A stretch of DNA of 42,465 bases. Origin: Bacteroidota bacterium (lineage in GTDB: Bacteria > Bacteroidota > Bacteroidia > B-17B0 > Aurantibacillaceae). The first letter of the stretch is position 1. Each line of letters opens with the position of its first letter. A model generated the notes under the pieces. That model did no database searches, was not told the DNA's origin, and saw only the letters and a list, made by a program, of their open reading frames with translations. Shown here piece after piece: positions 1-31,804 of the stretch. The position numbers and the translations under genes are program-made. The stretch covers positions 1-42,465 of the forward strand of contig JAJONO010000039.1 of the NCBI GenBank assembly GCA_021323535.1. Direction: 5' to 3'.

Positions 1-1737
1 GTTATTGCTCCCGTAGAAGAAACATTGAGTGAGAAAAAAGAAGAAGAAATTAAACCCATTGAGGAAATAAAAGCCGAAGACGGAAAAATTGAACTGGAAA
101 CAACAACAGAAATTGCAAACAAGGAAAAGAAAGACGGGCCCGAATTCGAGATCGGGAAAACTGTTGTAGAGCCTGAGGTGATTGAAGACGAAAACAAAGC
201 CGCGAAACTGGTTGAGCAATTCGGAGAGTACGACCCTACATTGGATCTTGGCCATTATAAATTCCCGGGATTTGATCTATTGAACGATTACGGTAATTCT
301 CACGCTAAGGTGAACCAGGAGGAACTCATTGCGAACAAGGATCGTATTATTGGTACTTTAAAAAATTACGGTATCGAAATTGATAAGATCACTGCCACTG
401 TTGGCCCTACTGTTACGCTTTACGAAATTGTTCCGGCGGCCGGTGTTCGCATCAGCAAGATCAAAAACCTTGAAGATGATATCGCTTTAAGTCTCGCCGC
501 CCTTGGTATTCGTATCATTGCGCCAATTCCCGGAAAAGGCACCATTGGTATTGAGGTTCCGAACCAGACACCAGAGATGGTGCCAATGAAAAACATTCTT
601 GCTTCTGAAAAATTTAATAATTCTAATTTTGAATTACCAATCGCTTTAGGAAAAACCATCAGTAACGAAATTTTCATTGCAGACTTAGCCAAGATGCCTC
701 ACTTATTGATGGCAGGTGCAACAGGACAGGGTAAATCGGTTGGATTAAATGCCGTGCTGGTTTCATTGTTGTATAAAAAACATCCGGCACAGGTAAAGTT
801 TGTACTTGTGGATCCTAAGAAAGTGGAGTTAACCCTGTTCAACAAAATTGAGCGTCATTTCTTAGCCAAGCTTCCAAACTCTGAAGACGCTATCATTACC
901 GATAACACAAAAGTAATTCACACGCTTAATTCATTGTGTATTGAAATGGATAACCGTTATGCCCTTTTACAGGATGCACAATGTCGTAATATCAAAGAAT
1001 ACAACACCAAGTTTGTAGCGAGAAAACTAAACCCGAACGACGGACATAAATTTCTTCCATACATCGTTCTTGTTGTGGATGAATTTGCCGATCTTATCAT
1101 GACGGCAGGTAAGGAAGTTGAAACGCCGATTGCCCGCCTGGCCCAATTAGCGCGCGCCATCGGAATTCATCTTATCATTGCTACGCAGCGTCCTTCGGTA
1201 AATATTATTACAGGAACGATCAAAGCCAACTTCCCGGCGCGTATCGCGTTTAGGGTAACGAGCAAGATCGATAGCCGCACCATTCTGGATGCAGGCGGTG
1301 CTGAACAACTGATAGGACGAGGTGATATGTTATTAAGCACAGGAAACGATCTTATCCGCATTCAGTGTGCATTTGTTGATACGCCTGAAGTAGAAAAGAT
1401 TTGTGAATTCATTGGCAACCAGAGAGCTTATCCAAGCGCTTTCTTATTACCTGAGTATGTTGGTGAAGACGGCAGCGACGGAAAAGAAACCGTTGACCTG
1501 AGCGAACGCGATAAAATGTTTGACGATGCCGCTAAACTGGTGGTTCAGTTCCAGCAGGGCAGCGCGTCATTCTTACAGCGTAAACTAAAGCTCGGATATA
1601 ACCGCGCCGGCCGCATTGTTGATCAGCTTGAAGCTGCAGGGGTAATTGGTCCTTTCGAAGGAAGCAAGGCCCGCGAAGTGCTTATTAAGGATATGTCTCA
1701 ACTTGACGAAATTTTACAAAAATTAAGAAATCAGTAG
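1..1737 (+). CDS. ftsK: DNA translocase FtsK/SpoIIIE, 5' end cut by window edge
   Basis: ATP-driven DNA pump of the division septum that moves chromosome ends and helps dimer resolution. The frame is open from base 1, so the N-terminal membrane domain lies outside the window; the TTG at 25 is only the first in-frame start-like codon, not the true start. Visible parts are an acidic, Lys/Glu-rich linker, the alpha/beta motor with Walker A GATGQGKS (nt 715-738) and Walker B LVVDEFADL (about nt 1070-1098), the downstream IATQRPSV motif, and a C-terminal winged-helix gamma domain (GSASFLQRKLKLGYNRAG region) that in this family reads KOPS-type polar sequences. A LolA gene follows, an adjacency I recall as common in Bacteroidota. 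Confidence 0.97.
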   Translation, partial: VIAPVEETLSEKKEEEIKPIEEIKAEDGKIELETTTEIANKEKKDGPEFEIGKTVVEPEVIEDENKAAKLVEQFGEYDPTLDLGHYKFPGFDLLNDYGNSHAKVNQEELIANKDRIIGTLKNYGIEIDKITATVGPTVTLYEIVPAAGVRISKIKNLEDDIALSLAALGIRIIAPIPGKGTIGIEVPNQTPEMVPMKNILASEKFNNSNFELPIALGKTISNEIFIADLAKMPHLLMAGATGQGKSVGLNAVLVSLLYKKHPAQVKFVLVDPKKVELTLFNKIERHFLAKLPNSEDAIITDNTKVIHTLNSLCIEMDNRYALLQDAQCRNIKEYNTKFVARKLNPNDGHKFLPYIVLVVDEFADLIMTAGKEVETPIARLAQLARAIGIHLIIATQRPSVNIITGTIKANFPARIAFRVTSKIDSRTILDAGGAEQLIGRGDMLLSTGNDLIRIQCAFVDTPEVEKICEFIGNQRAYPSAFLLPEYVGEDGSDGKETVDLSERDKMFDDAAKLVVQFQQGSASFLQRKLKLGYNRAGRIVDQLEAAGVIGPFEGSKAREVLIKDMSQLDEILQKLRNQ

Positions 1738-1779
1738 TTTTTTTAGGTTTTTAGGGTACTTTTTGGCACGTTTTGGTAT

Positions 1780-1787
1780 TACATTTG
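1780..1787 (+). promoter_or_regulatory. Bacteroidota-type -7 box upstream of lolA
   Basis: TACATTTG matches the TAnnTTTG -7 consensus of the Bacteroidota primary sigma factor and ends 16 bases before the lolA ATG. No -33 TTTG is found at the usual spacing of about 19; the nearest (1762-1765) is too close. lolA may therefore be transcribed separately from ftsK. Confidence 0.45.
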
Positions 1788-1803
1788 CACTTCTTAAAGT
1801 ATT

Positions 1804-2454
1804 ATGAAGAAACTACTTTCAATATTATTTGTTGCCGGAGCATTAATTTTAAATGCCCAGGACCAGGATCCAAAGGCAAAAACCATTCTCGATGATCTTA
1901 GCAAAACCACTAAGGGCTATAAAACGATAACCGCCGATTACGGTTTTATTATTTTAAATAAAGATAAAAAGCAAATCGAAAAACAAACCGGTAAGGTTCA
2001 GATCAAAGGACAAAAATTCAAACTCGAAATTCCGGGTAACACCATTGTGTGCGATGGAAAGACCTTATGGAATTATAATAAGGACGCAAAAGAAGTTACC
2101 ATAAAAGATTTTGATGCTTCCAATGACGAGCAATTAAATCCGAGTAAGATCTTTACTATGTATGAAACGGGTTATAAATATAAATATGACAAGGAAGAAA
2201 AAGTAGGAACATCTACAAGCCATGTTATTGATCTTTATCCTTCGGTAAAACCTGAGAAGAAGAAATTTCATACTGCAAAATTGTATGTAGACAAAGTGAA
2301 AAAACAAGTAACGCAGCTACGAATGATGATGAAAGACGGCGGTACACAGCTTTACGAGATTAAAACCATGAAACCGAATGTTGAATTGAACGACAACGTT
2401 TTTACGTTCGACCTTAAAGGATTCAAACCTGAACAGATTAATGACGAACGCTAA
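1804..2454 (+). CDS. lolA: LolA-like outer-membrane lipoprotein carrier
   Basis: Periplasmic chaperone that ferries lipoproteins from the inner to the outer membrane. The 216-residue product opens with a signal peptide (MKKLLSILFVAGALILNA, cut before QDQ). The mature part has the LolA/LolB half-barrel signature: GKVQIKGQKFKLEIPG, then VCDGKTLWNYN, and later KLYVDKVKKQVTQL with a C-terminal NVFTFD strand. The ATG at 1804 is chosen because the signal peptide begins exactly there. No LolB is seen nearby, as is usual in this phylum. Confidence 0.88.
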   Translation: MKKLLSILFVAGALILNAQDQDPKAKTILDDLSKTTKGYKTITADYGFIILNKDKKQIEKQTGKVQIKGQKFKLEIPGNTIVCDGKTLWNYNKDAKEVTIKDFDASNDEQLNPSKIFTMYETGYKYKYDKEEKVGTSTSHVIDLYPSVKPEKKKFHTAKLYVDKVKKQVTQLRMMMKDGGTQLYEIKTMKPNVELNDNVFTFDLKGFKPEQINDER

Positions 2455-2458
2455 CACA

Positions 2459-2527
2459 GTTATTAGTTTTTAGTTATTAATGCTTAATAAGCAGTTTACT
2501 AAAAACTAAGAACTAAACACTAATAAC
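2459..2527. repeat. Intergenic inverted repeat, family A (copy 1)
   Basis: An A/T-rich imperfect inverted repeat fills the gap between the convergent lolA and phoH genes. GTTATTAGT at 2459 is mirrored by the CTAATAAC that ends on the phoH stop codon. Its right arm (2500-2519, TAAAAACTAAGAACTAAACA) recurs exactly at 14013-14032. It may work as a bidirectional terminator, but it lacks a GC-rich stem. Confidence 0.7.
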
Positions 2528-3477
2528 TATTTGGATTCGTCGTATTTCTCAATGATCGCTCTCACGAGTCTGTGACGAATTACATCGCTCTTATCAAGTT
2601 CGATAATTTCAATACCTTCTACCTTCTTTAAAAGCTTTAATGCCTGCAGTAAACCGCTTGGTTGTTTATAAGGTAAATCTATTTGAGTAGCGTCACCGGT
2701 CACAATGAATTTTGCATTGGCTCCCATACGCGTGAGGAACATTTTCATCTGGCTCTCGGTAGTATTCTGCGCTTCATCAAGAATAACGAAAGCGTTATCG
2801 AGCGTTCTTCCACGCATAAATGCAAGGGGCGCAATCTGAATGGTGCGGTTCTCGATGTACTGATTTAATTTATCGGTAGGAACCATATCGTTAAGCGCGT
2901 CATACAATGGTTGCATATAAGGGTCGAGTTTCTCCTTTAAATCGCCCGGAAGAAATCCAAGATTTTCACCGGCTTCAACAGCGGGGCGTGTAAGAATGAT
3001 ACGTTTTACTTCTTTGTTCTTGAGTGCTTTTACGGCAAGCGCCACTGCTGTATACGTCTTTCCGGTTCCGGCCGGGCCCACAGCAAAAAGCATATCATTC
3101 TTTAAAATGCTGCTCATCATCCGACGCTGGTTGTCGGTTTTTGCCTTGATAACAAGTCCGTTATTACCAAACAAAATAATATCGTTGCTTATGGCATCTT
3201 CTTTTGATTCAAGAAGATTATCTCCCGTTTGTCCCAATAAACGTTCGAGCACGGACTCAGTCAGAAGTCCGGTTTTATGATAATGTTCGGTAAGCATATC
3301 CAGCTTTTTCTCGAAGCGGTTAATTTCAGATGATTCGCCAAGAACCTTTAGAGAGTATCCTCTCGCTATCAATTTGAGTTTTGGAAAATACTTTTTAATA
3401 ATATTCAGCTTCACATCGTTCACTCCGTAGATCTCAACCGGCTCAATGCTTTCAAGGGTAATAATCTTTTCTGTCAT
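2527..3477 (-). CDS. phoH: PhoH-like P-loop ATPase
   Basis: Cytoplasmic P-loop ATPase of the PhoH family, related to RecD-type helicase cores and linked to RNA metabolism and stress; the exact substrate is unsettled. The 316-residue length is normal. An N-terminal KH-like segment (about 10-65) precedes Walker A GPAGTGKT (about 133-140), the TRPAVEAGE motif, Walker B VILDEAQNT (about 229) and a C-terminal GDATQIDLP motif. It is convergent with lolA and divergent from the SAM hydrolase gene. Confidence 0.95.
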   Translation of the reverse strand: MTEKIITLESIEPVEIYGVNDVKLNIIKKYFPKLKLIARGYSLKVLGESSEINRFEKKLDMLTEHYHKTGLLTESVLERLLGQTGDNLLESKEDAISNDIILFGNNGLVIKAKTDNQRRMMSSILKNDMLFAVGPAGTGKTYTAVALAVKALKNKEVKRIILTRPAVEAGENLGFLPGDLKEKLDPYMQPLYDALNDMVPTDKLNQYIENRTIQIAPLAFMRGRTLDNAFVILDEAQNTTESQMKMFLTRMGANAKFIVTGDATQIDLPYKQPSGLLQALKLLKKVEGIEIIELDKSDVIRHRLVRAIIEKYDESK

Positions 3478-3485
3478 ACAATTTT

Positions 3486-3574
3486 AAGTCAAAAGTTCAC
3501 AAGTCAGAATTCAAAAGATCCGTGGGTGCAAAAGTCGCGCCATTCTTTTGACTTGAACGCTTTTGACTTTTGTC
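3486..3574. repeat. Intergenic inverted repeat, family B (copy 1)
   Basis: Long imperfect inverted repeat between divergent phoH and the SAM hydrolase gene. The left arm (3486-3517) begins AAGTCAAAAGTTCA and the right arm (3545-3574) holds CTTTTGACTTGAA followed by CTTTTGACTTTTG, its near complement. Because it lies between two gene starts it is not a terminator. The same AAAAGTCAAAAG unit occurs inside coding sequence at 15762-15780 and 37816-37841. Confidence 0.75.
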
Positions 3575-3639
3575 TTGGATGTTTATAACCCTGTTAATCT
3601 CTCATCAAGTTTAAAAAAAATTATGCCTTAAAATATATT

Positions 3640-3647
3640 TACTTTTG
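3640..3647 (+). promoter_or_regulatory. -7 box just before the SAM hydrolase start
   Basis: TACTTTTG fits TAnnTTTG and ends five bases before the ATG at 3653, so transcription should begin at or within a few bases of the start codon. No -33 TTTG is seen at normal spacing. Confidence 0.5.
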
Positions 3648-3652
3648 AACAA

Positions 3653-4471
3653 ATGAGCATTGTAACCTTAACGACAGACCTTGGCTATCGTGATCCGTAT
3701 TTGGCCATCGTTAAAGCAAAACTGCTCACCCAAAGCGCGGGATTAAATATCATTGATCTTAGCTGCGACATTAAAGACAATAACATTTCTGACGCGGCAT
3801 TCATTTTAAAAAACGCTTTACCACATTTTCCGGAAGGAACCATTCATTTAGTCGCTGTAAAATTTATTGCCAGCAACAGTGGGCTCAACAAAACCAACAG
3901 CATTGATAATACCAGGTACCTGCTGAGTAAATACATGGGTCAGTATATTATTTGTCCTGATAACGGATTGTTTACTTTGCTCGACAGTTCATTCAACGAA
4001 CCGGTTTATCAATTGTATTATGAAGACAATACCAAGCATCATTTTTTTCTGAAGGATGTTTTCGTTGACATTGCGGTACATTTACTCAATAAGAATAAAA
4101 TTGAGGACATTGGCATTCTCACCACAGATTATTACAGGGCCATTCAGTTTGAAAGTTTTGTGAATGGGAACATCCTGAGAGGAAAAGGAATTTACATAGA
4201 TGATTTCGGAAACATCATCACCAATATTTCGAAACAACAATTCAATGATGTGGTTGGAAAAAAAAATTTCAGTATCACGCTTCCCGGAACCCGCATCACA
4301 AAAATTTACAACACCTACGACGAAGTAAAACATGGGCAGCCGCTCGTTCTCTTCAATAGTTTCGGTTACCTCGAAGTGGCCATCAACGGAGGAAACGCTC
4401 AGAAAATGTTATGTCCGCGCGACATTGGTTCTAAATTTGACTTTAACCTGATAATTGAATTTTATGATTAA
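3653..4471 (+). CDS. SAM hydrolase / SAM hydroxide adenosyltransferase (DUF62 family)
   Basis: Family members use water to split S-adenosylmethionine into adenosine and methionine, and relatives are SAM-dependent halogenases. The 272-residue protein has the N-terminal VTLTTDLGYRDPYLAIVKA motif with the substrate-binding Asp, an internal ICPDNGLFTLL motif, and a C-terminal beta-barrel domain with DDFGNIITNI and LFNSFGYLEVAINGG. The loop that usually reads HLVVVDPGVG is changed to HLVAVKFIASNSG, a divergence from the commoner form. It overlaps the next gene by eight bases, so the two are probably translationally coupled. Confidence 0.85.
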   Translation: MSIVTLTTDLGYRDPYLAIVKAKLLTQSAGLNIIDLSCDIKDNNISDAAFILKNALPHFPEGTIHLVAVKFIASNSGLNKTNSIDNTRYLLSKYMGQYIICPDNGLFTLLDSSFNEPVYQLYYEDNTKHHFFLKDVFVDIAVHLLNKNKIEDIGILTTDYYRAIQFESFVNGNILRGKGIYIDDFGNIITNISKQQFNDVVGKKNFSITLPGTRITKIYNTYDEVKHGQPLVLFNSFGYLEVAINGGNAQKMLCPRDIGSKFDFNLIIEFYD

Positions 4472-4757
4472 GCGTATTGTAAAAATGAGCTTTAAACCAG
4501 AGAAAGTCGAAGAGTTTAAAGCCATCTTCAAAGCAAACTGGAAATTCATAAAAGGATTTGAAGGATGTAGTCATGTTGAATTATTGCAGGATGAAAACAA
4601 TCCCTCTGTGTTTTTCACCTATAGCTTATGGAAAGATCAGGAAAGTGTAGACAATTACCGCAATTCTGAATTGTTTGAGCGCGTTTGGGGAAGCACCAAG
4701 GTGTTATTCAATGATAAGCCAGAGGCATGGAGCGTACGTGAAATAAACTTCGATTAA
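4464..4757 (+). CDS. Small ABM-fold (antibiotic biosynthesis monooxygenase-like) protein
   Basis: A 97-residue ferredoxin-like dimeric alpha/beta barrel protein. The pattern is a first strand IKRIVKMSFKPEK, helix VEEFKAIFKANWKFIKGFEGCSHVELL, then FTYSLWKDQESVDNYRNSELFERVW. I chose the ATG at 4464, which overlaps the end of the SAM hydrolase gene (ATGATTAA), over a TTG three codons upstream. Members may be small oxygenases, haem-degrading enzymes or binding proteins; the substrate cannot be told here. Confidence 0.8.
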   Translation: MIKRIVKMSFKPEKVEEFKAIFKANWKFIKGFEGCSHVELLQDENNPSVFFTYSLWKDQESVDNYRNSELFERVWGSTKVLFNDKPEAWSVREINFD

Positions 4758-4888
4758 AGGGTTTTAGATACAGACTAATATCCGTGAGTTTCTAAAAAGC
4801 TTTTACCAGTTAAAAAAACAAACCAACCACTTATTCAGAATCAGCTTTACTTTCTGATTATTTACTGATACATTAGTATTGAGTTATT

Positions 4889-7834
4889 ATTAAAAGAATC
4901 CATTACATATTTATCCTGTTTTTAATTTCTTTCGTTGTAAAGATAAATGCCCAGCAGTACTTCTTTAAGAACTACAGTGCCGAAAGCGGGCTACCTTTTG
5001 TGCAGGTATCGTGTATGTACCAGGACAGGCAGGGTTATTTATGGGCTGGTGGTTTTGGAGGATTGACGCGATTTGACGGAGAAAATTTCGTAAATTATAA
5101 TCCAAAGAACGGATTGATAGATCATAACGTTACTGCCATTGCGCAGGATGATTATGGGAACATTTTTGTTGGAACCGCAAAAGGATTAAGCATTCTGGTA
5201 CAGAATAAGATCTACAATTACACGAAGGCGCAGGGTCTTTCCAGTCCCAACATTTCTTCTTTCTGCAAAGGCTACCATCATAATATGTACATAGGAACCT
5301 CGAAAGGGCTCTTTACATTCAGCAAAAACAAGATCAGCGAAGTGGCCGCTCTTGCGGGATACAAGATCAACCATATTTATAAATCCGACACTTCTGATAT
5401 TTACATTGGCACAGATAAAGGGCTCATTGTTTACGGACATAAAAAGTTTGAAATTATAGATGAAAGCAAGGGGCTTCCTTCCAACCAGGTGAATTCGGTG
5501 GTACAGAAAAACGGCTTCATTGTTATTGGAACCAATAAAGGACTAAGTTTTTTTAATCCTTCTACAAAAAAAATCACCAATTATTTTATTGAGAATGGAC
5601 TGATCGACGAAAACATCTCCACCTTACTTAACCAGGATAATAATTTTCTCTGGATCGGATCACAGACAGGGCTTCTTCGTTTCGACGGCACACAGTTCAA
5701 TTATTACAATATTGGTTACGATAATAATTCCAATGTGGTTCGATGCATTTTAAAAGACAGAGAGGAAAATATCTGGATAGGAACACACAGCGGTTTGTTT
5801 AAGTACAGAGATAATTCCTTCTCCACTTACGATAAAACGAATGGGCCCGGAAACGCTTTTATTTTCCAGATCTTCAGAGACAGGCAGGAGAACCTGTGGA
5901 TGTGCTCAGACAATAACGGCATCTACAAATATTACCAGGGATATTTTAAACGTTACGGTATAAAAGACGGCATGAACACGAATGTTTGTCACGCAGGCAT
6001 TGAAGACAATGAAGGACGCTTGCTTTTTGGGACAAAGAACGGCGTGATTCAGTTTAAGAACGAACGGTTTTATGATATTCCTCTTCCTTCAGAATTTAAA
6101 GGCTCCTATGAGATGCTTGTGCAGATGAAAAACAAAACCACCTGGATAGCTGGCGGAAATGGAATTGCATCGCTCGACTGGAAAAACAACCAGCCTGAAA
6201 TTAAATTTAAACGCCTACCTGGCGAGGAAGAATACCAGATATATGGCTTATGCAATGATGATAATGATCATCTTTACATAGGAACACAACAGGGAGGTTT
6301 GTTTAAACTCATAGGCGATTCAATACATCATTACAGCAAAGAACTCAATTTGCCCGAACTCGATTATTTTGCGGTAAAACATTATAAGGATCATCTTTTC
6401 TCTGCCAGTCTTAACGGTATGATGGTGATCAACACCAAAACCGGTAGCTACAAATACATTACAGAAGCGGACGGTTTGAATTCAGAAAAAGTTTATTCCA
6501 TTGAATTTGCTGAGGGGCACCGGGCGCTTTGGATTGGAACCAACCAGGGAATCAATAAACTCAATCTTAAAAAATTTCTTGAAACCGGAAAAATTGAAAT
6601 TACCGCTTACGGCAAATTGCAGGGTTTCATGGGTGTTGAATGTAACTCGAACGGTATCTGGGAAGACAAAGACGGAACCCTTTGGTTTGGAACCATTAGC
6701 GGATTGGTGAAACACGAACCGTTTAATTTAAAAAAGAATACACAACAAAATTCAACTGTTCTTCAGAATATAAAACTGCTCACCGAAGACACTCTTTTAG
6801 CCAATGGTTCTGAATTAGGTAGTGATTTTAATACCATTACTTTTTATTACAAGGGCATCTGTCTTACAAATCCTGATAAAGTTTTATATATAAAAAAACT
6901 TGAAGGTTTAGAAAAAGAATGGAGCCTGCCAAGCACAGAAGATTACAGTAAATATGCCAACCTTGCACCTGGCAAATACACCTTTAAAGTAAAAAGCTGT
7001 AACGACGAAGGAATCTGGGACGAACAGGAAACCACTTTTACATTCACTATTCTTGCGCCATTCTATACAAAATGGTGGTTTATTATTCTTGTAATTACCT
7101 GCGTTTCGGGATTGATCTATACCACTGTCATGTTACGCATTGGCAACATTAAAAAGAAACAAAAAGTGGAATTTGAACGGCGCGTAGAGATGAGCAGAAT
7201 TGAATTAAAGGCTCTTCGCTCACAAATGAATCCGCATTTTATTTTCAATTCACTCAACTCCATCCAACATTATATTTTCCACTCCAAGAGCGATGAGGCC
7301 ATTAAATACCTCAGCAAATTTGCAAGGCTGGTAAGGATCATTCTTAACAACTCCAACAAGCCAACTGTTACCGTTGAAGAAGATCTTGAAGCGTTGAAGC
7401 TTTATCTCGAATTGGAAAAAATGCGCTTTGAAGATAAGTTCGAATATGAGATTATTATAGATCCTTCGGTGGATGCCGATTATGACATTATGCCACCCCT
7501 TCTTACCCAGCCTTATGTGGAGAATGCCATTCTTCACGGCCTGAATCCTAAGCCGGAAAAAGGAAAACTCACAATTACTTTCACTTCCAGAAATAATTTT
7601 TTAATTTGCACTATCACCGATAATGGTATTGGCCGTGAAAAAGCCGCTGAAATTAAACGTACCATGCCGGTGAGTAAACATAAATCCCTGGGTATGAAAA
7701 TAACCGAAGACCGTTTACGTATTCTCAATGAGGTAAATAATTCCAAACTGAGCGTTACGGTAACCGATCTTAAGGACGAAGATGGAAATGCACTGGGCAC
7801 ACAGGTTGAACTTTACGTACCGCTTAACGGTTAA
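4889..7834 (+). CDS. Propeller-domain sensor histidine kinase (Reg_prop, Y_Y_Y, LytS-type kinase), apparent AUU start
   Basis: Membrane sensor kinase pairing with the LytTR regulator just downstream. Up to 14 Reg_prop blades (repeated LWIGT..GL.., FVGTAKGLS, IGTNKGL) form two periplasmic propellers, followed by a Y_Y_Y domain, one membrane segment (nt about 7072-7140), a short coiled coil, and a His_kinase core with MNPHFIFNSLNSIQ and the ATPase motifs QPYVENAILHGL and DNGIGREKA. The first ATG/GTG/TTG in frame is GTG 5000, which would remove the signal peptide and cut the first blade. The frame stays open upstream to a TGA at 4880-4882, and codons from 4889 read IKRIHYIFILFLISFVVK then INAQQ, a clear signal peptide. 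Start is therefore ATT at 4889 (or 4886), 981 residues. Confidence 0.85.
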   Translation: MKRIHYIFILFLISFVVKINAQQYFFKNYSAESGLPFVQVSCMYQDRQGYLWAGGFGGLTRFDGENFVNYNPKNGLIDHNVTAIAQDDYGNIFVGTAKGLSILVQNKIYNYTKAQGLSSPNISSFCKGYHHNMYIGTSKGLFTFSKNKISEVAALAGYKINHIYKSDTSDIYIGTDKGLIVYGHKKFEIIDESKGLPSNQVNSVVQKNGFIVIGTNKGLSFFNPSTKKITNYFIENGLIDENISTLLNQDNNFLWIGSQTGLLRFDGTQFNYYNIGYDNNSNVVRCILKDREENIWIGTHSGLFKYRDNSFSTYDKTNGPGNAFIFQIFRDRQENLWMCSDNNGIYKYYQGYFKRYGIKDGMNTNVCHAGIEDNEGRLLFGTKNGVIQFKNERFYDIPLPSEFKGSYEMLVQMKNKTTWIAGGNGIASLDWKNNQPEIKFKRLPGEEEYQIYGLCNDDNDHLYIGTQQGGLFKLIGDSIHHYSKELNLPELDYFAVKHYKDHLFSASLNGMMVINTKTGSYKYITEADGLNSEKVYSIEFAEGHRALWIGTNQGINKLNLKKFLETGKIEITAYGKLQGFMGVECNSNGIWEDKDGTLWFGTISGLVKHEPFNLKKNTQQNSTVLQNIKLLTEDTLLANGSELGSDFNTITFYYKGICLTNPDKVLYIKKLEGLEKEWSLPSTEDYSKYANLAPGKYTFKVKSCNDEGIWDEQETTFTFTILAPFYTKWWFIILVITCVSGLIYTTVMLRIGNIKKKQKVEFERRVEMSRIELKALRSQMNPHFIFNSLNSIQHYIFHSKSDEAIKYLSKFARLVRIILNNSNKPTVTVEEDLEALKLYLELEKMRFEDKFEYEIIIDPSVDADYDIMPPLLTQPYVENAILHGLNPKPEKGKLTITFTSRNNFLICTITDNGIGREKAAEIKRTMPVSKHKSLGMKITEDRLRILNEVNNSKLSVTVTDLKDEDGNALGTQVELYVPLNG

Positions 7835-7879
7835 ACAAAATAGTATGAAACGCTTCCTTCAAATAAACAAAAAAAGACA

Positions 7880-7916
7880 GGAACGTTCCATATGACCTTA
7901 AAAAAAATATTTTTTT
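7880..7916 (+). promoter_or_regulatory. Palindromes between the kinase and regulator genes
   Basis: The 86-base spacer holds a perfect 10-base palindrome GGAACGTTCC (7880-7889) and a 16-base AT palindrome AAAAAAATATTTTTTT (7901-7916), the latter ending four bases before the regulator ATG. Either may be an operator or may fold over the start site; no function is shown. Confidence 0.35.
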
Positions 7917-7924
7917 GCATATGA
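7892..7924 (+). CDS. Possible 10-codon leader ORF coupled to the LytTR regulator
   Basis: ATG at 7892 opens a ten-codon frame (MTLKKIFFCI) whose TGA overlaps the regulator ATG in an ATGA junction (7921-7924). It spans the AT palindrome. This could be a leader peptide for translational coupling, or chance in an A/T-rich spacer; conservation in relatives would decide. Confidence 0.25.
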   Translation: MTLKKIFFCI

Positions 7925-8664
7925 AAACATTAATTATTGAGGATGAACAAAAGAGCCGCGAAATGTTAGCCGGCATCATCCAGAAAAATTGTCCGCAGTT
8001 GCAGATTATTGGCCTGGCCAACAACGTTAAAGAAGGTGTTGAGCTCATCAAATCGCTTAACCCCGAACTGGTTTTCCTCGACATAAGCATGCCCGACGGA
8101 AGCGGTTTCGATTTACTTGAAAAAGTACAGGGCCATAAATTCGAGCTCATCTTTGCCACAGCCAGCGATCAGCATGCCATCAGGGCCATTAAATACAGCG
8201 CCTGCGATTACCTTCTGAAACCGATCGATATTGATGAATTAAAAGCCGCAGTAGATAAAGCTGTTCAGAAAAAAGCGAGCTCCCCTCCTACCATGGAAAA
8301 CCTTCAGTTCCTTATTCAGCAGCTGAAAAAAGCCGATGATAATTTCCAGAAGATCACTCTTCCAACCGGAAACGCTTTTGAGATCGTTAATATCAAAGAT
8401 ATTATCCGTTGCGAAGCCGATACCAGTTACACTATTTTTTACCTGGCCGATAAACGTAAACTTATGGTTAGTGCCGGACTAAAACACTACGAAGAACTTT
8501 TACCGGAACAGGACTTCATCAGGGTTCATCACCATCACCTCATTAACATGAACCACGTTATGCGTTTCTTAAAAGTGGATGGAGGATACGCCGTAATGAG
8601 CGACGGAACGCAGATCGAAATTTCGAGAAGAAAGAAGGACGCTTTCCTGGAAAGACTCAGCTGA
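7921..8664 (+). CDS. LytTR-family response regulator
   Basis: Cytoplasmic DNA-binding regulator, 247 residues, the natural partner of the propeller kinase upstream. The receiver domain (1-120) has the acidic pair IIEDE, phospho-acceptor D54 in VFLDISMP, and the switch lysine in LLKPID. The C-terminal LytTR domain (about 140-247) shows IIRCEADTSYTIFYL, the HHHHLINMNHV turn and a final ISRRKKDAFLERL. The ATG at 7921 is preferred to the TTG at 7915, which only adds two residues. Confidence 0.93.
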   Translation: MKTLIIEDEQKSREMLAGIIQKNCPQLQIIGLANNVKEGVELIKSLNPELVFLDISMPDGSGFDLLEKVQGHKFELIFATASDQHAIRAIKYSACDYLLKPIDIDELKAAVDKAVQKKASSPPTMENLQFLIQQLKKADDNFQKITLPTGNAFEIVNIKDIIRCEADTSYTIFYLADKRKLMVSAGLKHYEELLPEQDFIRVHHHHLINMNHVMRFLKVDGGYAVMSDGTQIEISRRKKDAFLERLS

Positions 8665-8687
8665 TTTTAAGATTTTTTTTCAATTCG

Positions 8688-8707
8688 GCCAATCGTACTC
8701 CATTGGC
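8688..8707 (+). terminator. Weak hairpin after the response regulator gene
   Basis: GCCAAT (8688-8693) pairs with ATTGGC (8702-8707) across an eight-base loop and is followed by TTTAAGTTT. It is a short stem with a poor U-tract, so a weak terminator at best. Nothing else stands out in 8665-8849. Confidence 0.25.
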
Positions 8708-8849
8708 TTTAAGTTTCCTGCGCCAGGTGGCACCAATCCGCTTTACCATTTTTATCAAAATCTTACATGTGTCAGGTTACATTGCTTAATCACCCCATCT
8801 GCACTTATTGTTTCCCGAACTTTGCTGAAGAATTAAAACTAACATTATT

Positions 8850-29151: not shown

Positions 29152-29182
29152 CAAAAAAGGCCGTCTCAACATTGAGACAGCC
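29152..29182 (-). terminator. Rho-independent terminator of the plug-domain gene
   Basis: On the minus strand GGCTGTCTCAATGTTGAGAC then GGCC and a T-run. The stem GTCTCAA/TTGAGAC is perfect and extends with GG/CC pairs. It lies 23 bases after the stop of the 29205-30053 gene. Confidence 0.85.
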
Positions 29183-29204
29183 TCTTAACACAAACAGAAC
29201 ACAT

Positions 29205-30053
29205 TTATTCTGATTTTTCTTTTGCTTTTTCTTCTTCAATTTCTTTTGCACGATTAGCTTCATCGAGTTTTGCTTTTTCGGCAGCTCTTTTCGTTTCCTG
29301 CTTATCGCGCCACTCCTGGTTACGAATATTTTTTTCTCTTATACCACTGAAATAACTTTTAGTTGTAATGAGAACCGCGCCGCTGGTCATGTCGCCATAC
29401 ATAGCAGGCACGCCACCGGTAAAAAAGGTCAGGTTTTCAATGGCTCCACCCGGAACACTGGTTGCGCCCAGACATCTTACACCATCTACGTAATACGAAG
29501 TTGAACCATCTCTCGCGCCACGAACGTGAATCTGTCCGTCGCCCATATCAACCACATTTGAAGAAATGGATGACAACATACCTTTTACGTCGCCGGGATT
29601 GGCGCTTGCCAGTTGTTTCACTTCTTTAGCGTCGAGAGAACTGAACGTATACATGGTTTTATCAACTCCTTTTGGAGCATACTCGATCGGAGCAGCTACC
29701 ACAACTACAGTTGTAAGGGTATTCGCAGTAAGTTTTACATCAACATAAGTAGCTTCGTTAGGAATTACCTTGATGTTATTTACGGGTTGTGTCTGATGAC
29801 CGGGTTCAATGATCATAAGTTCATACTTACCGGGGGTTAAAGGCTTGTATTTATAGCGACCCTCTATATCTGTAACCACACCTCCGATAAGTACATTACC
29901 TTGTAATATTTTAACGGTGGCAAAAGGAACAGTTTCAAGCGTTTCATTATCTTTAATTATCCCTCTTATTTCTCCATAACCGGTTTGAGCTGTTGCGCTG
30001 AGGCCAAGGATGGCGAAGAGGATCGCCAGTACTGATGTTGTTAGTGTTTTCAT
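29205..30053 (-). CDS. TonB-receptor-like protein with carboxypeptidase-regulatory and plug domains but no barrel
   Basis: Exported 282-residue protein. Signal peptide to ATAQ; carboxypeptidase-regulatory-like (CarboxypepD_reg) beta sandwich about 25-110 (GEIRGIIKDNETLETVPFAT, GRYKYKPLTPGKYELMI); TonB plug-like domain about 125-235 (ANPGDVKGMLSSISSNVV, IHVRGARDGSTSYYVDGVRC, GGVPAMYGDMTSGAVLITT). Instead of the 500-700 residue beta barrel it ends in a charged Lys/Glu/Ala helix (REKNIRNQEWRDKQETKR to the end). The stop is followed by a strong terminator, so it is complete, not a broken gene. Its 5' side faces an ECF sigma factor gene. Confidence 0.85.
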   Translation of the reverse strand: MKTLTTSVLAILFAILGLSATAQTGYGEIRGIIKDNETLETVPFATVKILQGNVLIGGVVTDIEGRYKYKPLTPGKYELMIIEPGHQTQPVNNIKVIPNEATYVDVKLTANTLTTVVVVAAPIEYAPKGVDKTMYTFSSLDAKEVKQLASANPGDVKGMLSSISSNVVDMGDGQIHVRGARDGSTSYYVDGVRCLGATSVPGGAIENLTFFTGGVPAMYGDMTSGAVLITTKSYFSGIREKNIRNQEWRDKQETKRAAEKAKLDEANRAKEIEEEKAKEKSE

Positions 30054-30155
30054 AGCTTTAAGTTTTAAATGTTATTTTATTGGTTCCTTCTGAACTGTGT
30101 TCATCAGGACTTTATTTAAACCGGTTTCTGATAATAAGACGGGAATAGCTATAAA

Positions 30156-30182
30156 TTCCATAAATAATTTAATTTTATGGAA
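30156..30182. promoter_or_regulatory. Palindrome between the plug gene and the ECF sigma gene
   Basis: Perfect 9-base arms TTCCATAAA (30156-30164) and TTTATGGAA (30174-30182) around a 9-base A/T centre, in the 169-base divergent spacer. It is a plausible operator for one or both genes. No TAnnTTTG box is clear in front of the sigma gene. Confidence 0.45.
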
Positions 30183-30222
30183 ATATTCAGTTAATACGTC
30201 TTAATAATAGAATCCCTGTTTT

Positions 30223-30819
30223 ATGTGGTCATTCAGAAAGAAAAACTACCGTACCGATGAGGAGCTTGCCGCCGAGTATCTTGCTACAGGCAATCGCGAG
30301 CTGGTGGGCGATCTTTTCGAAAAACATGTAAAAACAGTGTTCGGGGTTTGTCTCTTTTACTTTAAGGATAAAGATGTAGCCAAAGATGTGGTGATGCAGA
30401 TCTTCGAAAAACTGATCACCGATCTTAGACGTTCAGAAGTCAAGAATTTCAAAGGATGGTTAAGCTTTGTAGTGAGAAATCATTGCATCAGCGAACTCAG
30501 GAAAATGAAAACAAGACAATTTGTCCCTGAAAGTTATCTCGACTTTGAAATGAAAGAAACATCTTATGAAACAGAAGAAGCTATAGCTTCGGTAGGCGAC
30601 GACATTATGCTTGACCACATGAAAAACTCATTGCATCTTTTAAAAGAGAAGCAAAGAATATGTGTGGAGATGTTCTATCTCAAAAACATGTCGTACCAGC
30701 AGATCAGCGAACACATGAAGCTTTCCCTGAACGAAGTAAAAAGCAGCATCCAGAACGGAAAACGGAACTTAAAATTATTAATTGAAGAAAAATTAAAAGA
30801 TGGACACAATGCAGCCTGA
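30223..30819 (+). CDS. ECF-type RNA polymerase sigma factor
   Basis: Sigma-70 family regulator of 198 residues. Region 2: GDLFEKHVKTVFGVCLFYFK to FKGWLSFVVRNHCISELRKM; region 4: LLKEKQRICVEMFYLKNMSY with the helix-turn-helix YQQISEHMKLSLNEVKSSI. The loop between them (TRQFVPESYLDFEMKETSYE) is long and acidic. The next gene overlaps by 20 bases and probably encodes a membrane partner. Confidence 0.93.
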   Translation: MWSFRKKNYRTDEELAAEYLATGNRELVGDLFEKHVKTVFGVCLFYFKDKDVAKDVVMQIFEKLITDLRRSEVKNFKGWLSFVVRNHCISELRKMKTRQFVPESYLDFEMKETSYETEEAIASVGDDIMLDHMKNSLHLLKEKQRICVEMFYLKNMSYQQISEHMKLSLNEVKSSIQNGKRNLKLLIEEKLKDGHNAA

Positions 30820-31804
30820 TAAAAACATGAGCGACCTCGAGTATCTTGCCGAAATGGGTTTTGACAAGGTAAAGGTGAGCGACAGCGACATCAGCGAACT
30901 GAAATCGAAAGTGAAGAGCAGGGTATTTTCCTATAACAACGGATTTTACTTTGGCTTTGTGAGCCTTGTAACCGGGGCCTTTCTTGGCATTTCTGTTTTC
31001 TTCATTTTTTACAATGCCCCTAAAATATTTCCTGCTCCAAAAACCTTAGCTGAAAAAGAAATTCCCGCTGAAAAGACAAATACTCCGGAACATCTTGCTT
31101 TAGATACTGTAAATGTTGTTGCCGAAAATTTTATTCTTCCAAAGCCTGTTGTAAAAACAAGTAAGGAGCCAGAAATTGCTTTTGTTCCTTCTGTAGCAGA
31201 TACAGCCGTTGTTCTTGAATCAAAACCTGTGACTGCGATCATTCCTGGTCCGGAAAAAATAAATGAAATCCAGATAAAATACATTCCCAATTCTCCGATT
31301 ATCTTTTTACATGATCTTAAAATCACGAATTATACCAGCCTCTATTTTAAAAAGAACAGATTCGTGACTCTTTCTACAAAAAGCGGACTAGACCCTTCTT
31401 ACGCCAATAAAGATGAGTTAAGAAAATACGAGAACGTTTTTACTACGGTTGAAAATTATTATCTCCACGAAGCCATTGGTGAGGCCATGCTGTATTTCAG
31501 CAAGAAGGATTTTAACCGCTGCCTGAGAACATTGCAAACCGTTCAGAGTATTAATCCTGATGACATTAACTGTCATTTTTATTCAGGAATGTGTTATTAC
31601 TACAAGAAGAATTACGCGGGCGCCCTTAAAAATTTAGAAGCCTGCATCAACAATTCCAACAATACATTTTTGAACGAGGCGCAGTATTATAAAGCCATGT
31701 CGCTTTACGAACAGGGAAACAAAATTGAAGCGGTTGAATTATTTAAGCAGATTGCAACAGAGGGTGGATTTTATGCGGAGAAAGCGAAGAGCTACTTATT
31801 TTAA
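30800..31804 (+). CDS. Single-pass membrane protein with C-terminal TPRs, possible anti-sigma partner
   Basis: A 334-residue protein. About 50 cytoplasmic residues (MSDLEYLAEMGFDKVKVSDS) precede one membrane helix (FGFVSLVTGAFLGISVFFIFY), a periplasmic linker and two to three TPR units (AMLYFSKKDFNRCLRTLQTV, CHFYSGMCYYYKKNYAGALK, EAQYYKAMSLYEQGNKIEAV). No zinc-finger or FecR domain is seen. The overlap with the ECF gene and its single-pass topology suggest an anti-sigma role, which is inference. ATG 30800, 30809 and 30827 are all possible starts. Confidence 0.75.
   Translation: MDTMQPDKNMSDLEYLAEMGFDKVKVSDSDISELKSKVKSRVFSYNNGFYFGFVSLVTGAFLGISVFFIFYNAPKIFPAPKTLAEKEIPAEKTNTPEHLALDTVNVVAENFILPKPVVKTSKEPEIAFVPSVADTAVVLESKPVTAIIPGPEKINEIQIKYIPNSPIIFLHDLKITNYTSLYFKKNRFVTLSTKSGLDPSYANKDELRKYENVFTTVENYYLHEAIGEAMLYFSKKDFNRCLRTLQTVQSINPDDINCHFYSGMCYYYKKNYAGALKNLEACINNSNNTFLNEAQYYKAMSLYEQGNKIEAVELFKQIATEGGFYAEKAKSYLF

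Follow-up and report, generated by a model that had tools for sequence, protein, structure and literature searches.

We describe a candidate four-gene regulatory system, three genes of which lie at positions 29,205–31,804 of contig JAJONO010000039.1 (assembly GCA_021323535.1, a Bacteroidota bacterium of the Aurantibacillaceae), the whole 42,465-nucleotide stretch analysed being referred to as the window. Its core is a trio in which the gene of a barrel-less TonB-receptor plug protein stands divergent from an extracytoplasmic function (ECF) sigma factor gene and its overlapping partner, encoding a single-pass tetratricopeptide repeat (TPR) protein. That the trio is a real conserved module with a shared promoter type is, in our judgement, very likely. 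It is somewhat probable that these genes, together with a distant fourth one, constitute an autoregulated Bacteroidota circuit of ECF sigma and anti-sigma factor to which a barrel-less TonB-receptor fragment is dedicated, a reading supported at the sequence level by gene linkage, co-occurrence, a shared promoter-like element and domain make-up. The sigma factor, the anti-sigma class and the plug are each of known kinds, and it is their combination that appears to be new.

Conservation of the three-gene module

In a first draw of the genus, a short plug gene (open frames of 257–319 amino acids (aa)) was found in 12 of 24 other genomes and adjoined the sigma and TPR genes in 12 of 12, showing that it is not a chance open frame; in these 12 genomes the gene is open and aligns at 45–70% identity. 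Profile searches of a genus sample of 40 genomes matched the TPR protein in 23, the short plug protein in 23 and a sigma factor of trio strength in 21 (E below 1e-80, a cut of our own, the next matches lying near 1e-51). Plug, sigma and TPR genes were intact and adjacent in 21 genomes, none of them was present in 16, and three (G318, G010 and G325) carried pieces at contig ends, which bears out the co-occurrence in other Bacteroidota that a preliminary description of this DNA had proposed to look for.

Beyond the genus, a class draw of 295 genomes gave TPR profile matches (E 1e-8 or better) in 73, many of them weak and confined to the TPR repeats. The best 30 of these 73 loci were fetched, and a sigma gene adjoined the TPR gene in all 30, with a plug match inside the 1.5 kb flanks in 17. 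Twenty of the 30 loci, picked to spread over families, were enlarged. A short plug gene (open reading frames (ORFs) of 228–309 aa) stands beside the sigma gene in 17 of them (one gene away in L106) across nine families, the arrangement being divergent in nine and plug–sigma–TPR on one strand in eight. The gene in between in L106 (family f23; 6914–8839, plus strand) encodes a VWA/YfbK-like protein with a CarboxypepD_reg domain of its own. Three f9 loci (L109, L111 and L113) have the plug–sigma–TPR operon near PorP/SprF-like or OmpA-like genes, as identified by Pfam in L109 and by eye in the others, a neighbourhood that possibly links it with type IX secretion.

Two back-to-back promoter-like elements

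The gap between the divergent genes contains an inverted repeat (30156–30164 and 30174–30182; 9-base arms around 9 bases, arms 100% complementary). The repeat itself was correctly given in the preliminary description as a 27-base palindrome (30156–30182); from the inverted repeat search and locus comparison, we now interpret it as the −35 pair of two back-to-back ECF-type promoters, one per gene. The predicted sigma-dependent promoter of the plug gene lies at 30135–30162 on the minus strand, and the predicted autoregulatory promoter of the sigma–TPR operon at 30176–30203 on the plus strand, each consisting of TATGGAA (−35 type) and CGTCTTA (−10 type). A TGGAA/CGTC pair at such spacing is the usual ECF promoter shape. 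Comparison of 27 loci found TATGGAA-N14-CGTCTTA pointing toward each gene, at near-constant spacing, in the plug–sigma gaps. One report also describes a CGT box at −10 in an ECF-type motif of Flavobacterium psychrophilum (PMC9723704).

Counted as TRTGGA-N14-16-[CT]GTC, a motif defined on the same loci, the element was found sigma-ward in 25, plug-ward in 23 and on both sides in 22 of 26 divergent loci. Across the same 52 strands, 200 dinucleotide-shuffled sets averaged 0.03 matches each and never exceeded one. That the plug gene has an element of the type found before the sigma gene agrees with the sigma-dependent expression that the preliminary description had suggested testing. It is missing sigma-ward in L114 and plug-ward in L060, L140 and L141, and L106, excluded from the count for the additional gene in its gap, has it on neither side. 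Of the 22 loci with both elements, 11 have the two −35 halves separated by 12–14 bases and six more by 21–23; the distance grows to 63 bases in the genus locus L059, to 106–171 in the f21 loci L098, L099 and L104, and to 455 in L101, each drifted half keeping its own −35/−10 spacing. Because the halves drift apart while each retains its −10 partner, the palindrome is better explained as two promoters than as an operator. As a negative control, the element was absent from all five loci read of a second ECF sigma factor of the genus (on contig C97 in the genome of the window). A changed form, TATGGAA...TTGCATC, was seen by eye before the plug operon and a fourth-protein homolog in two f34 genomes (clear in G195, weak in G274).

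The barrel-less plug protein

The plug gene (29205–30053, minus strand) encodes a 282-aa protein composed of a signal peptide, an N-terminal extension (NTE; transthyretin-like, CarboxypepD_reg) domain, a TonB-receptor plug and a charged C-terminal helix, as evidenced by its ORF, Pfam and an AlphaFold model, and the short gene is conserved. The preliminary description had read this protein as a regulatory sandwich and plug with a charged helix in place of the barrel, and both Pfam and the model agree. Pfam assigned CarboxypepD_reg to residues 29–109 (E 5e-11) and Plug to residues 132–227 (E 8e-8, above cutoff), with no barrel family among its matches. The model (mean pLDDT 84, pTM 0.41) consists of a signal helix (2–22), a beta sandwich, the plug and a single helix (234–281). 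In VIA-align, the NTE (residues 27–112; 29718–29975, minus strand) matched 5aq0_B with a Z of 14.6, and residues 25–115 matched the isolated NTE of the SusC protein BT3090 (9hfj; Z 12.2, root-mean-square deviation (rmsd) 2.0, 80 aligned). The plug domain (residues 130–234; 29352–29666, minus strand) matched FyuA (4epa; Z 11.4, rmsd 2.2, 99 aligned) and 6z9a (BT1762-63; Z 10.1). Neither Pfam nor VIA-align found an STN domain on the protein, its N-terminal domain being CarboxypepD_reg/NTE.

The outer-membrane barrel of a TonB-dependent transporter has 22 strands. Here, the ORF ends 48 residues past the plug, one helix occupying the place in the model where a receptor barrel would begin, and the barrel is likewise missing in the aligned relatives. 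The charged tail is a local elaboration: L060 has almost none, that of L059 is short, and in several distant members the protein stops directly after the plug. A terminator-like hairpin (29155–29186, minus strand; 14 pairs and a T run, also recovered as an inverted repeat) starts 18 bases past the stop codon, in line with the terminator of its own that had been proposed. Receptor-type plug motifs remain conserved, and a TonB-box-like segment follows the NTE in 28 of 36 plug proteins when searched with a loose expression. Stand-alone short NTE-plug proteins, with the C-terminus directly after the plug, are also encoded in L062 (2040–2738, plus strand) and L063 (6053–6733, minus strand), and no sigma or TPR matches were present near either gene in the region read.

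The closest full-length relative is a receptor-like protein of ~1240 aa (31–36% identity within the genus). It is encoded in the genome of the window (G000, contig C131; L135:5174–8911, minus strand) and, at E 1e-20, in 35 of the 40 genomes of the genus, two of the open frames being shorter. In L135 and L145 its gene is followed by that of a ~1500-aa protein (661–5151, minus strand, in L135, where Pfam gave no match) and also by that of a protein judged PorV-like by eye. A role of the ~1240-aa protein as a dedicated partner is unsupported, since it occurs in genomes with and without the trio. Identity of this ~1240-aa paralog with BamG was considered and rejected, BamG being a FadL-type barrel (PMC12611786).

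The TPR protein as a probable class I anti-sigma factor

The sigma factor (30223–30819, plus strand; 198 aa) contains regions 2 and 4 only, with Pfam Sigma70_r2 and r4_2 and NCBIfam TIGR02937 all above cutoff. The TPR gene (30800–31804, plus strand), delimited by ORF, Pfam, alignment and model, overlaps it by 20 bases when counted from the first ATG, as reported in the preliminary description. Among 12 relatives, 7 have their first start codon at the equivalent of the fourth codon (30809); this is the probable start, and it reduces the overlap to 11 bases. The predicted protein begins with a short cytoplasmic region (30809–30937, plus strand), modelled as two helices and aligning with the end of the zinc-type anti-sigma domain that distant relatives carry. 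A transmembrane helix follows (residues 48–71; 30941–31012, plus strand; model helix, with the hydropathy maximum from residue 52), then a poorly predicted stretch and a periplasmic TPR domain (residues 222–333; 31463–31798, plus strand) recognised by Pfam, the model and Foldseek, in which the YbgF TPR domain 2xev was the best match. One dominant hydrophobic segment near residues 45–90 is present in 34 of 34 TPR proteins, L100 having a second peak of 1.85.

Pfam detected no FecR domain in the window protein or 10 relatives and no zinc finger in the window protein itself. The earlier statement that the partner carries neither domain stands for this protein. In the wider family, an N-terminal Hx3Cx2C motif is present in 9 of the 34 members aligned. 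The motif was lost in the window genus, and the window protein retains only the part aligning with the end of the zinc-type domain. The zf-HC2 family matched 7 of 11 N-terminal domains of the TPR family (best E 5e-5; nine of the 11 were picked for the motif). A PDB profile search with these domains placed 3hug_B, which we take to be RslA with SigL, first, with DdvA and ChrR lower (E 0.006–0.4) and unrelated proteins between them. PMC7406223 gives Hx3Cx2C as a signature of zinc-binding class I anti-sigma domains and describes class I groups that mix zinc and zinc-free forms. From the motif, the zf-HC2 and PDB matches in relatives, and this mixing within groups, we consider membership of the class I anti-sigma factors, with loss of the zinc ligands in the window genus, the most likely identity of the TPR protein. 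The suggestion that it is a new kind of anti-sigma factor is therefore not upheld as stated, relatives having the zinc-type class I motif at the N-terminus; instead, it seems to belong, in degenerate form, to a known domain class, and its periplasmic TPR part is what is unusual.

A fourth gene preceded by the same element

The genome of the window has a third copy of the promoter element, 35 bases before the gene of a 434-aa secreted protein composed of a CarbopepD_reg_2 domain and ~320 residues without a Pfam family; the adjoining gene is presumably aroE, as judged by eye. This fourth, co-occurring gene had been missed in the preliminary description. Pattern matches preceded its ortholog in 9 of 12 relatives searched. 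In the genus, the element lies upstream of 20 of 21 intact orthologs (~440 aa; fragments L230, L236, L237 and L238 excluded), at −34 to −37 in 17, and in the exception, L229, it precedes the ORF directly upstream of the fourth gene. Because the motif was defined on the trio loci, its presence here provides an independent test of the promoter. The fourth gene is present in 20 of the 21 trio genomes (not in G018), in the three broken ones and in none of the 16 trio-less ones.

For comparison, the element is missing before 271 further genes of these loci; it is present before eight genes labelled 'other', the labels being set by short expressions. These comprise two trio sigma genes (L057 and L142), three fourth genes (L228, L231 and L233), the upstream ORF of L229, and genes in L212 and L213, loci fetched for their motif match. 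The latter are single matches before a 205-aa and a 282-aa protein, respectively (L212:2375–2402 and L213:2156–2183, both plus strand), in one genome each, and are consistent with chance.

Seven f21/f19 genomes gave 17 pattern matches, compared with seven in the control. Nine are outside the trio, four of them preceding fourth-protein homologs and five not, so that the strict-pattern element precedes such homologs in four of the seven genomes. In L105 (f24), the plug, sigma and TPR genes and a homolog of the fourth gene follow one another on one strand, and in G259 (f5) the coordinates place a fourth-protein homolog directly after the TPR match. Within the class draw, the TPR protein (E 1e-14; 46 genomes) and the fourth protein (E 1e-40; 47 genomes) occur together in 37 (Fisher p 2e-29, although related genomes are not independent). 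An element was also noted ~90 bases before the gene of a DUF4139/DUF4140 protein with an inserted CarbopepD_reg_2 domain (L251:1501–3028, plus strand; f21 genome G243), which is either another regulon member or a chance match.

Proposed circuit and comparison with known systems

On the basis of these comparisons, we propose that the sigma factor transcribes its own operon, including the membrane-bound TPR anti-sigma factor, as well as the divergent plug gene and the distant fourth gene, encoding a secreted NTE protein of ~440 aa. In the TPR protein, the short N-terminal segment would tether the sigma factor to the inner membrane and the periplasmic TPR domain may act as the sensor, whose periplasmic partner would be the exported barrel-free NTE-plug protein. 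The plug protein probably binds and stabilises the anti-sigma factor, in the manner of the free signalling domain of FoxA-type receptors, giving a negative feedback that may be relieved once the plug protein is drawn off; TonB, a ligand, and receptor barrels that are empty or misassembled are examples of what could do this. Direct partnership of plug and TPR is a real possibility, somewhat short of even, both the contact and the sign of this step being presumed.

The FecA-FecR-FecI and FoxA-FoxR-FoxI systems share with the window system an ECF sigma factor, a single-pass anti-sigma factor and the N-terminal part of a TonB receptor in the periplasm. Free receptor signalling domains can hold the anti-sigma factor, and receptor signalling domains overproduced in the periplasm protect it from proteolysis and silence the system (PMC11637429). 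If the sigma factor drives production of the barrel-less plug, the window system would have a counterpart of such an overproduced domain built in. Unlike these systems, the window system has no barrel, an NTE instead of an STN domain, a TPR domain instead of the FecR periplasmic domain, and an N-terminus of class I type. SusC-type TonB-dependent transporters (NTE-plug-barrel) share the NTE, the TonB-box-like linker and the plug, whereas the plug protein lacks the barrel. According to PMC7782687, loss of the NTE from the SusC protein BT1763 by deletion prevents growth on levan, for reasons that are not understood, and it is STN rather than NTE that is tied to anti-sigma signalling. With class I (ASDI/zinc-type) anti-sigma factors such as ChrR and RseA, the TPR family shares the Hx3Cx2C motif (in the nine members noted above), a membrane segment and the sigma-linked gene; in contrast to them, the window genus has lost the zinc ligands, is missing the start of the domain and has a periplasmic TPR domain. 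The Plug of the type IX secretion system (Fjoh_1759/PGN_0144) shares the name and closes the periplasmic side of an outer-membrane channel (PMC9127263 and PMC7463736). A match to this SprA-bound Plug had been expected, but none was seen in the PDB sequence searches (E 0.001 in the profile search) or among the Foldseek and VIA-align matches listed; these comparisons, made without the Plug sequence itself, do not exclude homology.

Weighing of alternative explanations

Several observations weigh against the proposed circuit. The use of the element by the sigma factor is judged from position and conservation, and the plug–TPR and sigma–TPR contacts are inferred. Known anti-sigma factors are bound by STN domains, whereas the plug protein has an NTE, and the zf-HC2 matches to whole TPR proteins (5 of 10) all fall under the Pfam curated cutoff. 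Sigma–TPR loci without a short plug gene occur in family f38 (three enlarged loci, and four more judged within 1.5 kb), the promoter element being present in 3 of 3 looked at, and short plug proteins without a nearby sigma match were found in G037 and G036 (the G037 contig is just 5.5 kb). For the fourth gene, nine class genomes have the TPR protein and lack the fourth protein at the thresholds given, ten have the fourth protein only (seven of them f3, with no TPR match), and a loose element (TGGA-N14-18-GTC) lies within 250 bases of just 8 of 29 class homologs, all f1/f21. The pattern count in the genome of the window, five compared with four in the reversed control, is uninformative by itself for that very reason, and the two matches outside the trio and the fourth gene, on C55 and C122, are unexplained or inside a gene region. 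The f38 loci also favour a reading in which the plug is an output and not a signalling partner, namely a periplasmic effector that an outer-membrane stress response deploys under sigma control; it might, for example, plug receptor barrels in trans, act as a TonB decoy or serve receptor precursors as a holdase, while the TPR anti-sigma factor senses something else. The promoter type common to another secreted protein, the frequent TonB-box-like segment and the conserved receptor-type plug motifs all fit this reading, which we consider possible, if clearly short of even. However, the plug gene is tied to the sigma–TPR pair more tightly than the fourth gene is, standing beside it in most of the enlarged loci and operon-first in eight, a place that we regard as common for regulatory partners.

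Other explanations touch single parts of the proposed circuit. If the TPR protein were a co-transcribed envelope factor and the sigma factor were controlled elsewhere, the absence of a recognised anti-sigma domain from the window protein, its cytoplasmic part of only about 45 residues and the weakness of the zf-HC2 matches in relatives would fit; the constant adjacency to sigma (30 of 30 fetched loci), the 11-base overlap in 7 of 12 genus relatives, the single dominant hydrophobic segment and the Hx3Cx2C motif make this improbable. The 27-base palindrome could, from its perfect arms and their close spacing in half of the loci with both, be taken for the operator of a dimeric repressor, yet each arm is part of a TATGGAA-N14-CGTCTTA unit, the arms stand 63–171 bases apart in L098, L099, L104 and L059 with the units intact, and single units precede the fourth gene. 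The drift of the arms largely refutes an operator, which we regard as very improbable. That the plug gene is a remnant of a decayed TonB-dependent receptor would agree with its best full-length relative being the ~1240-aa receptor-like protein. Such a pseudogene or truncated receptor is refuted by conservation, the gene being open in the 12 other genus genomes, with its own promoter-like element and terminator and a length class constant across nine families, and is hardly tenable.

Searches of a limited open-access library brought up no description of a barrel-less NTE-plug protein combined with a TPR anti-sigma factor and an NTE effector under a single promoter type. If the proposed circuit is correct, a barrel-less plug kept under the promoter type of the sigma factor would amount to a signalling or quality-control protein derived from a receptor, and the trio would point to undescribed sensing of signals or trouble at the outer membrane. 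A more specific role, rather unlikely at present, would be that of a surveillance pathway by which Bacteroidota monitor how their SusC-type receptors are assembled or coupled to TonB; the NTE-plug would then be the periplasmic ligand for the TPR domain of a zinc-finger-derived anti-sigma factor, the barrel-less plug would mimic or compete with real receptor plugs, and the second secreted NTE protein would be a co-regulated effector. The predicted promoter TATGGAA-N14-CGTCTTA and the four-gene regulon make the idea directly testable.

A second sigma factor in the same genome

The second ECF sigma factor, on contig C97 of G000 (L134:5321–5908, plus strand), is paralogous to the window sigma factor (E about 1e-50). 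Its gene overlaps that of a 463-aa protein (L134:5889–7280, plus strand) with a hydrophobic segment recognised by eye and no Pfam match. The same pair recurs in four other genus genomes read (L136–L139), and the C97 sigma factor and its single-pass partner could be another undescribed sigma/anti-sigma pair.

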